Source of the DNA: a candidate division WOR-3 bacterium
GTDB lineage: Bacteria; SDB-A
Assembly (NCBI GenBank): GCA_016926475.1
Contig: JAFGON010000056.1
Location: 1 to 39,640, forward strand
Direction: 5' to 3'
Length of the DNA: 39,640 nt
Part shown: positions 3,648-29,566 of the stretch, one piece after another
How positions within the stretch are numbered: the stretch's first letter is position 1
Layout of the letters: every line of letters starts with the position of its first letter
The notes under the pieces: generated by a model
Seen by the model: only the letters and a program-made list of their open reading frames with translations
Told to the model about the DNA's origin: nothing
The model's database searches: none
Position numbers and translations under genes: made by a program

Positions 3648-5417
3648 TCAGCTCCTCTTTCTCTTCTCCTCCAAAAACCAGACAACGACAGCGGCAGCGC
3701 AGATGAAAATAGCCGCCGGAAAAAAATCCTGGACAAAGATTTCTTTTCTCCCATCAATAATCGTGTTTTCTATATTCTGCCCAAAATTCAAAAAAGAGTC
3801 CAGTTCCCACACCCGGGCATTTACTGCAGCCAGACAAAAGCTTTCCGGGGTTGTCCAGTCTTGGACTCTGAAAGAGGCTGTGTCCGACAAATCACCTTCC
3901 GACGCTGTAATAATGTGCGAACCCGCTTCAATTTCAGGCAGGAAAAAATAAAATTTTTCCCTTTCCTCCGCCGCATACTGTATTTCTGAACCGTCTAAAC
4001 GGACTTCGGGTTTTTCCAAAGAATAAACCCAAAAATTTACCGCTTCATCCGTCGAGAAAAATCTTTTGGAAAGAGAAATCCTGACAGTTTTACCCCTTCT
4101 TCCAATTGCCCACGAGACTGTATTTTCCAGAAAATTTTCAGCGAAATCTCTCGCTTCTCCTCCCGAAAAATACCAACCTGAAAAGCATCTGTGAGCCACT
4201 GTAATAAGAGCCGCACCTTGCCTCGACCCAACAGAAAGAACAGCCCCTGAACGACAGGACAATAGAGCATTGGTCCCTGGGTAAGGTTTTGTGAAATTCT
4301 CGGCTAACATTCCTTCGCAGTCCAAGGTTTTAGTCAGTTCATGTTCTTTGCCCATATCCGTTTGAAAAACCTCTTCAATCGGCGATTCTTCGATTTCCGC
4401 TGAAGTCTTCTGAACCCAAAGAACAACGCATTCTTGTCTCCAACGGTACTCCGAATCGAAAGGGTTTTTTTCGGATATCCAAACGACAAGGGAGTAATTT
4501 TCCGGGTTGAAGCCGCTGTTTACAGTCCGCTCCTCAGTGCCGTCAAAAAAAAACGCCTCTTCCCCCTGCCCTTGGACAAAAACCGATAATTGCAACTCGG
4601 ATTTTTTTGAAAGGAGCCTTCTTATCGCGCCGACTTCCCAGTCTGGCGCATCCGCATAAATCACAGCGGGAAGAATTTCCGCGTTCACGGAAAAATCAAA
4701 AAAATCCTCGCTGGTCGATGTTAAAAACGCCAACCTGTGGTTTCCGTTTTCAAGTCCATAGATGTTGTATTCAAAGTTTTTGTGTTCATTTGTCTTCATT
4801 TCTATTTGGAAAGATTCAACTGCTATTCCGTCTTGCCTCACCCATAAAGTTTCAAGGCAAGCTTCTCCGGCGTTGACGAGACTGATGCTGAAGCATGAAG
4901 TATCTCCCGGTAATACTATGGAAGGCCCGCCGACAATGGACACGTATGTCCTCTTCATTTTCTGAACCAAAAAAAATACTTGCTGCGCTTTCAAAAAAGC
5001 GTCATGAGCAAAACCGCCGAGCGAAATCTTTTCACACAGACAGAAAATTTTACCTCTTTGGACTCCTTTCAATAGGTATAATTCGAGAAGGGCTCTGTCT
5101 GTCACCTCTCCTTGAAGGTTTTTGTCCGGATCTCCCGCCTCGTAAAAAGTGTCACCGGCGAGAAAATAAATCCTGCCTCCGAACCTGTCCCTGAAAACAT
5201 TCTCGTTCTCCCAAAAAAGATTGCTGTTGTTGCCTTCAACCAGAAGAATCGGCGGAAAGGTCTCTGTTTGACCTCTTGAAAAGACATTTTTTGAGAGGTA
5301 TGCAACCAAAAAAACCGAAAAATAAAAAACTGCTCTCACAAAGAATTCCCATGAAAATTTCCGGCTGACGATCAAAGATGCCGCCGTTAGAACAATTGCA
5401 GCGGCAATAAAAATCAT
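3648..5417 (-). CDS. Membrane protein with GATase1-like/BatA-type architecture
   Basis: Unnamed 589-aa protein. Two hydrophobic segments lie at the N-terminus (about 2-18 and 28-44) and one near the C-terminus (about 565-582), followed by the basic tail EEKRKRS, so most of the chain probably faces the periplasm. The middle begins with a CARDB-like beta segment, then the stretch AVIYADAPDWEVGAIRRLL, which resembles the class-I glutamine-amidotransferase-like domain of large BatA/VWA-associated membrane proteins; no catalytic Cys-His pair was identified. Its start overlaps the upstream lipoprotein stop as ATGA, and uvrB follows after 2 bases. Function is unknown. An envelope sensor or assembly role is only an inference from topology. 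Confidence 0.75.
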   Translation of the reverse strand: MIFIAAAIVLTAASLIVSRKFSWEFFVRAVFYFSVFLVAYLSKNVFSRGQTETFPPILLVEGNNSNLFWENENVFRDRFGGRIYFLAGDTFYEAGDPDKNLQGEVTDRALLELYLLKGVQRGKIFCLCEKISLGGFAHDAFLKAQQVFFLVQKMKRTYVSIVGGPSIVLPGDTSCFSISLVNAGEACLETLWVRQDGIAVESFQIEMKTNEHKNFEYNIYGLENGNHRLAFLTSTSEDFFDFSVNAEILPAVIYADAPDWEVGAIRRLLSKKSELQLSVFVQGQGEEAFFFDGTEERTVNSGFNPENYSLVVWISEKNPFDSEYRWRQECVVLWVQKTSAEIEESPIEEVFQTDMGKEHELTKTLDCEGMLAENFTKPYPGTNALLSCRSGAVLSVGSRQGAALITVAHRCFSGWYFSGGEARDFAENFLENTVSWAIGRRGKTVRISLSKRFFSTDEAVNFWVYSLEKPEVRLDGSEIQYAAEEREKFYFFLPEIEAGSHIITASEGDLSDTASFRVQDWTTPESFCLAAVNARVWELDSFLNFGQNIENTIIDGRKEIFVQDFFPAAIFICAAAVVVWFLEEKRKRS

Positions 5418-23763: not shown

Positions 23764-24633
23764 TCATACTGACAAATCCCACACAGAATTCCATCTTTCT
23801 CTCGGATTTGCCGAAAAAATCATAACCTCGTTTTCCCTAATTCCCTTATTTAAGAAAAGCAAAGCTTTCTCGGCGTCTTTATTCTCGCTAAAGAAACCGT
23901 ATATCGCCGAACCCGAACCGGACATCAACGCGAAATCCGCTCCGGCTTCGAGAAGCGTGTTTCTGTAAAACTCCAATTTCGAGTAACTTTTAAAAACAAC
24001 AGACTCAAAATCGTTGCAGAGGATTTCACCTCTGAACTGAAAAGTTTTTCTTTTATACTTTTCATGCTCATCTGTCAAGTCATAAGATTGATAGGCGGTT
24101 TTTGTTGAAATTCTCTCTTTTGGAATGATCAGGACATATCTTCCGCCAAAAGTCTTCTCTCCAAAAGCGAGCATATCTCCCCTGCCTTCCGCTCTCGCTC
24201 TTCCCCCTTTCAAAAAAAACGGCACATCGCTTCCTGTCGCAAGAGCAGTCTCTTCCATTGTTCTTTCTTTTCCCTTCTCATCCACGTTTTCAAAAGCATA
24301 GAGCAAAGCGACCGCCGCGTTTGAAGATCCCGCGCCAAGACCGGTTCCTGCAGGAATTTTTTTGTAGAGTTCGACATGAAAAAAAGGGATTTCGGGGTGT
24401 TTTCTTCTCGCCGCCGCGAGAGCTATCAGAACGAGATTATTATTACCGGCGGGAACTTTTTCTCCGCTGACAGACAGAGTATCCTTTCCCCATGACTGTC
24501 TGAAAACAATCCTGTCGCCTAAATCAAGGGATTGAAAAGTCGTCTTGATTTCGTGGTACCCATCGTCTCTTTTGCCGATGATTTGAAGAGAAAGGTTTAC
24601 TTTAACTGGACATATAAAACGGTTGATCTTCAT
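23764..24633 (-). CDS. ispE: 4-diphosphocytidyl-2-C-methyl-D-erythritol kinase
   Basis: MEP (non-mevalonate) isoprenoid pathway enzyme that phosphorylates CDP-methylerythritol. GHMP kinase of 289 aa: Lys11 in CPVKVNLSL is the conserved N-terminal lysine, the ATP loop PAGTGLGAGSSN lies at about 94-105, and LMSGSGSAIYGFF is the C-terminal glycine-rich motif. SDVPFFLKGG contains the catalytic Asp. It ends exactly at the tRNA-Gln 5' end. The order ispE-tRNA-Gln-prs-rplY-pth resembles conserved neighbourhoods. Upstream is GGGP synthase, another isoprenoid enzyme. Confidence 0.96.
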   Translation of the reverse strand: MKINRFICPVKVNLSLQIIGKRDDGYHEIKTTFQSLDLGDRIVFRQSWGKDTLSVSGEKVPAGNNNLVLIALAAARRKHPEIPFFHVELYKKIPAGTGLGAGSSNAAVALLYAFENVDEKGKERTMEETALATGSDVPFFLKGGRARAEGRGDMLAFGEKTFGGRYVLIIPKERISTKTAYQSYDLTDEHEKYKRKTFQFRGEILCNDFESVVFKSYSKLEFYRNTLLEAGADFALMSGSGSAIYGFFSENKDAEKALLFLNKGIRENEVMIFSANPRERWNSVWDLSV

Positions 24634-24644
24634 AAAATCCCGGA

Positions 24645-25385
24645 TTACGACCCATGAGCGGCGAGCACCATCTCTTTCAAGATGGAAATATCCTTTTCGA
24701 TCGCGGTTCCTACAACAATTAGGTCAGCGCCAGATTCCACCTTTTCCGACACTTGTTCCGGTTTGTTTAAACCGCCCCCGACAATCACCTTTCCAGAGCA
24801 AATCTCCCCTGCTTTGGTGATGTATTCACGGGGAACCGTCTCTTTTGCGCCGCTTCCTGCTTCGAGGTACACATTCTTCATTCCCATGTACTCTGCCGCC
24901 ATCACGTGAGCCACGAATATTTCTTTCTTGTCTCTCGGGACGGGGTTGGTGTTGCTTATAAATTCCACGGCGGTCTTTTTCCCAGACTCTATGAGAATAT
25001 AAGCAACCGGAATGCTCTCAAGGTTGTATTTGTTCACGAAAACAGCGTTTTCTAGTTGTTCTTCTATGAGCCACCTCGAATTCCTCCCTGAAATCAGCGT
25101 CAGGAAAAATACCGCGTCAGCTTCCGGAACTATGAATTTTGAGTTTCCCGGAAATATAATCACAGGCAAGCCTGATGTACTTTTCAAGTCGAGAACGAAT
25201 TTTCTCAGAGAATCCGTGAAAAGCGTCGATCCTCCAACTAAAATTCCATCGCTTCCAGAATTTTTAATGCTCTGAGCAATAAAAGCCACTTTGCTGAGGT
25301 CGATTTTATCTGGATCGAGCAACGGAAAAAAAAGCGCTTTTTTGCCACGGTCAATCTTATGAACCAGGTTGTTCCAAGTGTTCAT
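24645..25385 (-). CDS. Geranylgeranylglyceryl phosphate synthase family (PcrB/GGGPS group)
   Basis: 246-aa TIM-barrel prenyltransferase. The family joins sn-glycerol 1-phosphate to a polyprenyl diphosphate by an ether bond: geranylgeranyl in Archaea, heptaprenyl in Bacillus PcrB. Hallmarks seen: LLDPD at 22-26 (Mg-binding Asp), GGST at 51-54, FPGN at 78-81, YLEAGSGA at 173-180, VGGGL at 202-206 and VVGTAIE at 224-230, all phosphate-binding loops. The dispersed features look more like the GGGPS group found in Bacteroidetes-type bacteria than like short PcrB, but chain length cannot be read by eye. The ATG has a strong AGGAG site inside the recX end, giving a 29-base overlap. No glycerol-1-phosphate dehydrogenase (EgsA/AraM) is in the window. 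Confidence 0.9.
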   Translation of the reverse strand: MNTWNNLVHKIDRGKKALFFPLLDPDKIDLSKVAFIAQSIKNSGSDGILVGGSTLFTDSLRKFVLDLKSTSGLPVIIFPGNSKFIVPEADAVFFLTLISGRNSRWLIEEQLENAVFVNKYNLESIPVAYILIESGKKTAVEFISNTNPVPRDKKEIFVAHVMAAEYMGMKNVYLEAGSGAKETVPREYITKAGEICSGKVIVGGGLNKPEQVSEKVESGADLIVVGTAIEKDISILKEMVLAAHGS

Positions 25386-25971
25386 CTTTCTCCTCTTTGA
25401 TTGTGTCGGCAGTTTTTCGCGCGATTTCCAGGGAAAACCCTCTGTTCAAAAGAGCCGATACGATATTTTTTCTTCTCTTTTTCTTTTCTGCCACGGCAAG
25501 AGCAAGAGAAAACTCGTCTCTTGAAACGGCTTTCTCAAAGAAAATTCGGATTGTTTCTTCCTCTATGCCTCTTTCTTTCATTTTTCTCTTGATGTAATAA
25601 CCGCCGGCGGGTTTTATTTCCGTGAATTTTTTCAGCATATTTTCAGCGATGCAAAAATCATCCAAAAAACCTTTTCTCTTGAGAATTTTTACAGTTCTCT
25701 TCACAGAAATATGAGAAAAATTCCGAGAGAGCAGCTTTTCAGAAAGCTCCTTCTCGGTAAGGTCGCCGTAAGACAACAAAACATAAGCTTTTTCCAGAGC
25801 TTTTAACGTCTCATCTTTTGTCTTCAGAAAATACAATTCTCTGCCAGAGACGCTCGCGCCTTTTTTCCATTTGTCAAACAAAACGTCCGTAGAATATTCC
25901 GATCCGTCGTCTATCTTCAAAGTCCACCCTCTCTTGTTTTTTTCGACGGACTCAATGGTGTTTTCATTCAA
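25357..25971 (-). CDS. recX: Regulatory protein RecX
   Basis: Inhibitor/modulator of RecA filaments. 204 aa of tandem three-helix repeats, with YVLLSYGDLTEKELSEKLL near 62-80 corresponding to the RecX repeat 1 consensus, followed by RKGFLDDFCIAEN and the C-terminal ALLNRGFSLEIARKT repeat. It follows recA by 3 bases, as often seen. The start is TTG at 25971; an in-frame stop lies two codons upstream, so no longer reading is possible. Its 3' end overlaps the GGGP synthase start by 29 bases, a long but plausible overlap because the downstream ribosome site is strong. Confidence 0.9.
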   Translation of the reverse strand: MNENTIESVEKNKRGWTLKIDDGSEYSTDVLFDKWKKGASVSGRELYFLKTKDETLKALEKAYVLLSYGDLTEKELSEKLLSRNFSHISVKRTVKILKRKGFLDDFCIAENMLKKFTEIKPAGGYYIKRKMKERGIEEETIRIFFEKAVSRDEFSLALAVAEKKKRRKNIVSALLNRGFSLEIARKTADTIKEEKDEHLEQPGS

Positions 25972-25974
25972 GAA

Positions 25975-27015
25975 CTATTTCTCCCTAATCTCAATACCTA
26001 ATTCTTTTCTTATCGCGTTTTCAAGTTCGGAAGAGATTTCGGAGTGCTCTTTTAGGTAGTTTCTCGTGTTTTCCTTGCCTTGACCGATGTTCTCATCCTT
26101 GTACGAATACCATGTTCCGGATCTCTTCAACAGGTTTAATTCAAGAGCTTTGTCGATTATTTCACCATGCTTGGATATTCCTTCGTTGAAAAGAATGTCG
26201 AAATGGGCTTCTCTAAAAGGAGGAGCGACTTTATTTTTGACTACCTTGACGATTATCTCGTTTCCCACAGCTTGATCCGCTACTTTGAGCGTTCCTATCC
26301 TCTTGATCTCAAGCCTGCAGGAAGAATGAAACTTAAGCGCGAGCCCACCCGGTGTAGTAGTCGGATTCCCCATCATTATGCCGATTTTGTATCTAACTTG
26401 GTTTATGAAAACCGCGGCGGTTCCGCTTTTGGAAACTCCTCCTGTCAATTTCCTCATCGCCTTTGACATCAACCTCGCTTGAAGCCCGATTTGCGCGTCG
26501 CCCATCTCTCCGTTGAGTTCGTCGGCAGGGACAAGAGCGGCGACAGAATCGACGACGAGAATATCCAATCCTCCTGACCTCACGAGTAAATCCGAAATTT
26601 CAAGCGCCTGCTCTCCTGTGTCCGGTTGAGAGACTATAAGATCTTCTACGTTGACGCCCAATTTCTCCGCGTATACAGGGTCAAGAGCGTGTTCAGCGTC
26701 TATGTACGCCGCTTTACCTCCCGCTTTTTGAGCGTTGGCAACTATATGAAGAGCCAAGGTGGTTTTCCCGGATGCTTCTTGACCGAAGATTTCCGTTATT
26801 CTTCCCCTCGGAATCCCTCCGACTCCAAGAGCTGCGTCGAGCGTCAGAGAACCCGTTGGTATAGCCGGAATTTCAACTTTGGTGTCGTCCCCAAGCCTCA
26901 TGATGGAACCTTTGCCAAATTGTTTTTCAATCAATTTCATAGCGCTTTCTATCGCTTTTTCTTTATCCGAAAAATTTTCTCTCCCCAGAGCTTCCTTACC
27001 CGCAGATTTTGCCAT
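25975..27015 (-). CDS. recA: Recombinase A
   Basis: DNA strand exchange and SOS coprotease. 346 aa. Walker A GQEASGKT is at about 78-85, [14 protein letters not shown] is Walker B, and the L1/L2 DNA loops ([22 protein letters not shown] and the [21 protein letters not shown] region) are intact. The ATG follows AAGGAG with a 6-base spacer. thpR lies immediately upstream, with its stop one base from the recA start, and recX follows: the common thpR/ligT-recA-recX order. I saw no clear LexA box, and the gene is deep inside a long run, so any SOS promoter would be internal. Confidence 0.98.
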
Positions 27016-28672: not shown

Positions 28673-29566
28673 TCACTTAAAAACTTCAGGGTCAATAATA
28701 ACTGTCAAAATCACAAAAATGCTGTATAGCAGCAAATTGACGAGAAAAGGTCGATCTGAATATATCACTTTTTCAGGCATCTCACCTTCCTTTTGAAGAT
28801 GCACAACGAACAGATATCTAAATATACCATATATCACAAAAATAGTGGAATAGGGCAATAAAATTGCTCCTTTTTTTTCCGCCGTGTAAATCGCGTAAGT
28901 AACTATTGTGGCAGAAGCGACAACTATTATCATTTGGTCGAGGAGTTCTTTAGTGTAGTGCTTCAGCACTTCTCTGTGAGACTCGTTTCTCTCCATGAAT
29001 ATTTCCTGCCTTCTCTTGATAAGACCAAGAAAAAGAGAGAGAAGCAGAACGGTTATCAGAAACCAAGATGATATCGGAACATCTATGGCGAAAGCCCCTC
29101 CGACAGCTCTAATGACAAAGCCGAGAGCGATTATCATCACGTCCACGATCACAACTTTTTTTAGCCATAGAGAATAAGCGAGCGTCATCATGGTGTAAGC
29201 CGCCACAGCCCCGGGCATTTTCCAGTCTAAAACACCGTACTTGTGAGAAAAATAAATCCATGGAATGTTCGTCAGAAAGAGTAGGGCTAAAACAAAAATG
29301 AAAGCAGATAAGGGTTTTATCCTGCCTGATGCTATGGGCCTTTTTGATTTTACCGGGTGAAGCCTGTCTTTTTTAAGATCTATTATGTCGTTTACAACGT
29401 AGACGAAACTCGACGCTCCCAAAAAGGCAAAAAATCCAGAAAAAGAAAGAACGGAGGGTTCGAGCTGTGTGAATTTCCTTGTGAATACAAGCGCCGCGAA
29501 GACGAATATATTCTTAATCCACTGTTTAGGCCTTAATTCTTCAATTAAAGCCGCTGTTCCTTTCAT
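28673..29566 (-). CDS. UbiA-family prenyltransferase, decaprenyl-phosphate phosphoribosyltransferase-like
   Basis: A 297-aa membrane protein with about eight hydrophobic segments. The first Asp-rich motif NDIIDLKKDR is at 59-68, and the N-terminal LRPKQWIKNIFVF plus KSKRPIASGRI resemble decaprenyl-phosphate phosphoribosyltransferase (DPPR synthase, Rv3806c-like), which joins PRPP to a polyprenyl phosphate. The wider UbiA family also includes digeranylgeranylglyceryl phosphate synthase, the partner of GGGPS, so that alternative remains open. The ATG has AAGGAT upstream and overlaps the lipoprotein gene by 26 bases. prs, ispE and GGGP synthase lie in the same co-directional run. Confidence 0.8.
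   Translation of the reverse strand: MKGTAALIEELRPKQWIKNIFVFAALVFTRKFTQLEPSVLSFSGFFAFLGASSFVYVVNDIIDLKKDRLHPVKSKRPIASGRIKPLSAFIFVLALLFLTNIPWIYFSHKYGVLDWKMPGAVAAYTMMTLAYSLWLKKVVIVDVMIIALGFVIRAVGGAFAIDVPISSWFLITVLLLSLFLGLIKRRQEIFMERNESHREVLKHYTKELLDQMIIVVASATIVTYAIYTAEKKGAILLPYSTIFVIYGIFRYLFVVHLQKEGEMPEKVIYSDRPFLVNLLLYSIFVILTVIIDPEVFK

Follow-up and report, generated by a model that had tools for sequence, protein, structure and literature searches.

A group II geranylgeranylglyceryl phosphate synthase in a WOR-3-like bacterium, and candidate genes for prenyl ether lipids elsewhere in its genome

Could a bacterium of a WOR-3-like lineage make ether-linked prenyl lipids, and which enzymes would act beside its geranylgeranylglyceryl phosphate synthase (GGGPS)? 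The question arises from a GGGPS-type gene that the original prediction placed beside ispE and in the same run as a UbiA-family gene, the pair that in Archaea makes the ether lipid core. The stretch of DNA analysed (hereafter, the window; 39,640 nt) makes up the whole of contig C56. The assembly (G000) comprises 106 contigs totalling 2.15 Mb, is estimated to be 100% complete and 0.27% contaminated, and was searched family by family. Our phylum sample consists of four genomes from two genera of a small WOR-3-like phylum (G000–G003, of which G000 is the genome of the window).

Sequence evidence fixes the family of the gene. Its reading frame is intact from an ATG start, encodes 246 aa (Table 1) and exceeds the cut-offs of NCBIfam PRK04169.1-2 (274.9 bits; cut-off 247), TIGR01769 (194.1 bits; cut-off 161.55) and Pfam PcrB (145.6 bits; cut-off 23.9). 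It is the only GGGPS copy in the genome, and since its counterparts in the three related genomes are 60–74% identical and stand in the same gene order, it is not a chance open reading frame.

Model scores, the ranking of PDB structures and phylogeny all place the enzyme in group II, on the bacterial IIb side with Flavobacterium johnsoniae 4JEJ, rather than with PcrB (heptaprenylglyceryl phosphate synthase, group Ib), with which it shares a superfamily and, by prediction, prenyl transfer to glycerol-1-phosphate (G1P). Group II structures head the ranking (4JEJ, 169 bits; 4MM1, 158 bits), followed by group I 2F6U (40 bits) and PcrB 3VZX (33 bits), and the score on the PcrB model PRK04169.1-1 is 38.8 bits (cut-off 260). 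In the tree (24 sequences, the Paenibacillus row being a long branch), a split with support of 100/100 sets group II apart from the GGGPS of haloarchaea and the PcrB proteins of Listeria and Paenibacillus; our sequence falls among bacterial sequences with 4JEJ, leaving M. thermautotrophicus outside (94/95), although branching among the bacterial sequences is mostly without resolution. Clustering with PcrB only, named beforehand as the outcome that would speak against the idea, is thus ruled out by model score and tree split alike.

The conserved Asp, two Tyr, Glu and last-phosphate-loop Thr expected of a group II GGGPS are all present, and in the alignment D24, Y129, Y173, E175 and T227 of the window enzyme are identical to D29, Y134, Y178, E180 and T232 of 4JEJ; the proposed chain-length limiter, I90 in 4JEJ, is likewise matched by I85. 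Roles of these residues, including the limiter, follow PMC9385802, in which Y134, Y178 and E180 are numbered as MtGGGPS, whereas on the aligned chains these numbers are F. johnsoniae chain positions. W141 of the Mt chain, a hexamer-ring residue placed via a mutant chain, corresponds to F142 in the window enzyme. Together with HMM scores and PDB ranking, this residue map bears out the earlier observation that the enzyme is of the GGGPS type and that its signature loops are intact. As the best solved match, 4JEJ shares the catalytic residues, the limiter Ile and the bacterial side of the tree with our enzyme, but the two are distant in sequence and the linkage to ispE and recX is that of the window gene within its phylum.

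Table 1 Features of the window and of the DGGGPS candidate's surroundings
Feature	Coordinates	Strand	Basis or occurrence
ispE (CDP-ME kinase, MEP isoprenoid pathway)	23764..24633	-	TIGR00154 160.9 bits, cut-off 138.7; synteny
GGGPS, group IIb, 246 aa	24645..25385	-	NCBIfam, PDB ranking, tree, active-site map
recX	25357..25971	-	Pfam RecX_HTH1 34.5 bits; synteny
recA	25975..27015	-	TIGR02012 526 bits
UbiA-family prenyltransferase, decaprenyl-phosphate phosphoribosyltransferase-like	28673..29566	-	PRK12324.1-2 216.5 bits; 8j8j/8j8k
PAP2 phosphatase gene directly before DGGGPS candidate	L073:487-1844, L074:93-1453		Two genera

The gene belongs to a run, entirely on the minus strand, of recA, recX, GGGPS, ispE, prs, rplY and pth, in which the start of GGGPS overlaps recX by 29 nt and its end lies 11 nt from ispE. 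The position beside ispE was correctly described, and the order recA-recX-GGGPS-ispE also occurs in the other three genomes of the phylum (4/4). Beside GGGPS in 11 more distant loci, none of the window's neighbours was found, bar one weak partial prs match (L023), so the ispE adjacency reads as a lineage trait and as weak evidence of function. The same gene order and a 60% identical GGGPS appear on LKUE01000033.1, whose record is classified in the same taxonomic family as this lineage but is titled Desulfuromonas sp. SDB, a name that looks wrong.

The UbiA-family gene of the original prediction is real and in the same run, but four genes (recX, recA, thpR and pilT) separate it from GGGPS and it belongs to another subfamily. 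Its score on the PRK12324.1-2 model falls just short of the NCBIfam cut-off (234), and the DPPR synthase structures 8j8j/8j8k (103 bits over residues 5–275) are the sole solved relatives. With these models and structures closest, it is ruled out as a DGGGPS partner, and the supposed GGGPS-UbiA pair of the window falls away; the gene product resembles decaprenyl-phosphate phosphoribosyltransferase (8j8j) in sequence, its predicted function. Upstream of it, all four genomes carry a small putative lipoprotein gene and a 554-aa reading frame without a Pfam match.

Three UbiA genes are present in the genome, and a better DGGGPS candidate, which probably adds a second chain, is the one on contig C32. 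Among UbiA families it is closest to DGGGPS: its best solved match is MjDGGGPS 6M31 (E 1.9e-16 over the full length; runner-up 0.0038), and both Asp motifs are present, NDLTDLEED (NDxxDxxxD) and KDIEDYKGD (DxxDxxxD) together containing all six of the acidic or Asn residues found in the MjDGGGPS motifs (N62/D66/D70 and D180/D183/D187; PMC9385802). It scores 123.3 bits on PRK12882, 112 on PRK12884 and 106 on PRK12883, the best of these being far under the equivalog cut-off of 296, which no gene in any of 41 genomes passed. C32 is unlikely to be a foreign contig: in tetranucleotide composition it is no further from the window (0.153) than other stretches of G000 are (0.138–0.189), and its gene order is repeated in G003. 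The third UbiA gene (L075, G000:C29:35000-42244, ends at 4723) is present in all four genomes, each time near glycosyltransferase-like, polysaccharide deacetylase-like and adenosine deaminase-family genes, with LpxL-like and GT9-like reading frames upstream; its nearest UbiA models are of the chlorophyll synthase type, matched weakly (61 bits of 212).

Across the 41 genomes, GGGPS scores over its cut-off in seven, and the six best DGGGPS-model scores fall in five of these seven plus one other (G009). The associated Fisher p of 1.6e-4 is indicative only, because the score threshold was chosen with the data in view and each related genome was counted on its own; in two of the six best hits (G006 and G012) the second Asp motif departs from its strict form. 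The top score overall (186.5 bits; L080, G009:C153:2352-3182) comes from a genome that is 82% complete and in which GGGPS was not found.

In both G000 and G003, which represent two genera, a nucleotidyltransferase gene (GlmU-like by reading) is followed by a PAP2 phosphatase gene and then by the DGGGPS candidate, while profile searches of G001 and G002 found neither a DGGGPS candidate nor a matching nucleotidyltransferase, a gap that may reflect loss or missing assembly (estimated completeness 94% and 100%). This distribution bears on the main rival reading, according to which only a mono-prenylglycerol is made that, once its phosphate is removed, serves as a carrier or as a minor lipid, with a second chain being optional. 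Retention of GGGPS in the two genomes lacking the candidate and the PAP2 gene before it in the other two are consistent with such a product, for which Bacillus offers a precedent: there PcrB and YvoF lead to acetylated heptaprenylglycerol, an acetyl donor to lipoproteins (PMC12345273). We nonetheless regard it as rather unlikely, since the candidate is present in G000 and G003, the window enzyme is of group II and outside the PcrB group, and the gaps in G001 and G002 are possibly a matter of incomplete assembly.

What would supply the G1P? Consistent with the original observation that no G1P dehydrogenase (G1PDH) was seen near GGGPS, none was recognised among the scanned window genes, and genome searches with PF13685 and full-length NF002022 matched only a 152-aa reading frame that, by eye, looks like PurE. 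A G1PDH, if present, should be detectable by such a search, as G1PDH-type proteins of other genomes score 98–134 bits on PF13685, and NF002022 gives 190–268 bits for three of these proteins. Weak hits in G002 and G003 were reading frames of the same size as the PurE-like one, and those elsewhere proved to be an iron alcohol dehydrogenase (G001), AroB (G010, G012) and a glycerol dehydrogenase (G026). Among the 41 genomes, G1PDH-grade hits were confined to four (G020, G030, G038 and G040, the last by PF13685 alone), none with GGGPS over its cut-off; conversely, none of the seven GGGPS genomes has one.

Absence of any G1P source had been proposed as grounds for rejecting ether-lipid synthesis. 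What was found is that the genome lacks a known G1P dehydrogenase, which by itself is no refutation, since engineered E. coli without G1PDH still produced G1P ether lipids and Cloacimonetes MAGs carry GGGPS, DGGGPS and geranylgeranyl reductases without G1PDH or CarS (PMC7852524). The missing dehydrogenase would be explained if sn-glycerol-3-phosphate (G3P) were the acceptor, giving an ether lipid of bacterial handedness for which G1P is not needed, and the Cloacimonetes GGGPS did take G3P too in an assay (PMC7852524). This is unlikely, however, given that Y129, Y173 and E175, the proposed residues of G1P stereospecificity, are kept and that G1P is preferred by the GGGPS enzymes tested (PMC9385802).

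The remaining partners proposed for a genome search were recovered in part: a geranylgeranyl reductase-family gene was found, while G1PDH and CarS (CDP-archaeol synthase) were not. The reductase-family gene (G000:C96) is assigned at family level only by TIGR02032 (181.6 bits; cut-off 158.8), a model whose cut-off is passed in all four genomes of the phylum; a second reductase-like gene (G000:C74) was set aside because it matches the FAD-binding protein family PRK11445 (374 against 303 bits). For CarS, G000 has no PF01864 match, and hits in G001 and G002 are reading frames between uppS-like and dxr-like genes, CdsA by eye; bacterial CdsA is able to stand in for CarS (PMC7852524). The C20 donor is putative only, because the sole E-polyprenyl synthase (short-chain prenyl synthase) found in G000, on contig C93, is over the FPP synthase subfamily cut-off but under that for GGPP synthase. 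PlsY is present in 4/4 genomes.

Since other contigs carry a DGGGPS-like UbiA as well as a gene of the geranylgeranyl reductase family, the ether-linked prenyl lipids suggested at the outset are plausible for this genome. Our preferred reading, to which we give a probability of about 0.6, is that some archaeal-type prenyl glycerol ethers would be made by GGGPS, then by the C32 DGGGPS candidate and the reductase-family enzyme, beside ordinary PlsY ester lipids. Based on knowledge of these families and on the Cloacimonetes pair (PMC7852524), GGGPS would form the first ether bond between a C20 prenyl group, supplied as Mg-bound diphosphate, and the C-3 hydroxyl of G1P; the C32 enzyme would probably attach the second prenyl chain; the reductase-family enzyme may saturate the chains; and head-group steps would fall to bacterial enzymes. 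Against this reading stand the lack of a G1PDH and of a CarS match in G000, the two sister genomes without a DGGGPS candidate, the position of the candidate far under the equivalog cut-off, and an E-prenyl synthase that passes the FPP but not the GGPP synthase model. A catabolic direction, in which GGGPS and DGGGPS dismantle archaeal lipids from the surroundings, is very improbable: on chemical grounds, an ether bond formed from an allylic diphosphate is unlikely to be undone in vivo by reversal of the reaction, and GGGPS lies in a conserved housekeeping run next to ispE rather than among catabolic genes. That idea was raised for G1PDH-less bacteria (PMC6431249), and G1P uptake systems do exist in marine bacteria (PMC12718374).

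The finding is thus real and was correctly spotted, is ordinary in kind, and had its partner gene misidentified. GGGPS and DGGGPS without G1PDH form a pattern already published for FCB bacteria (PMC7852524, PMC6431249) and repeated here. The Cloacimonetes pair is active in vitro and in E. coli, and other FCB genomes also combine GGGPS with DGGGPS (PMC7852524); in the sections of the FCB survey used here, which name candidate division WOR-3 as one of the phyla covered, both enzymes occur in 12/12 phyla and G1PDH in only two (PMC6431249), and on G1PDH in Cloacimonetes these sections and PMC7852524 disagree. Our genome shares with the described systems GGGPS, a DGGGPS-like UbiA, the reductase family, the bacterial ester route and the lack of G1PDH and CarS, but GGGPS and the DGGGPS candidate are not co-localised in G000, the candidate follows a PAP2 gene, and one E-prenyl synthase was found where Cloacimonetes have two. 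The sections of PMC7852524 and PMC6431249 used here do not describe a linkage of GGGPS to ispE, a PAP2 gene paired with DGGGPS, or sister genomes lacking DGGGPS. A more speculative and rather doubtful proposal for the phylum is that prenyl glycerol ethers are built without glycerol phosphate from a known G1PDH, through a new G1P route or from G3P with bacterial handedness, and that G001 and G002 make a GGGPS-only single-chain lipid or carrier.

The G1PDH gap repeats the open question of how bacterial GGGPS enzymes are supplied with G1P. A small WOR-3-like phylum joins the bacteria in which core genes of archaeal lipid synthesis coexist with the bacterial pathway, a point relevant to the question of mixed membranes in nature. 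Its sister genomes, of which some have a DGGGPS candidate and others none, provide a natural comparison for GGGPS acting alone.
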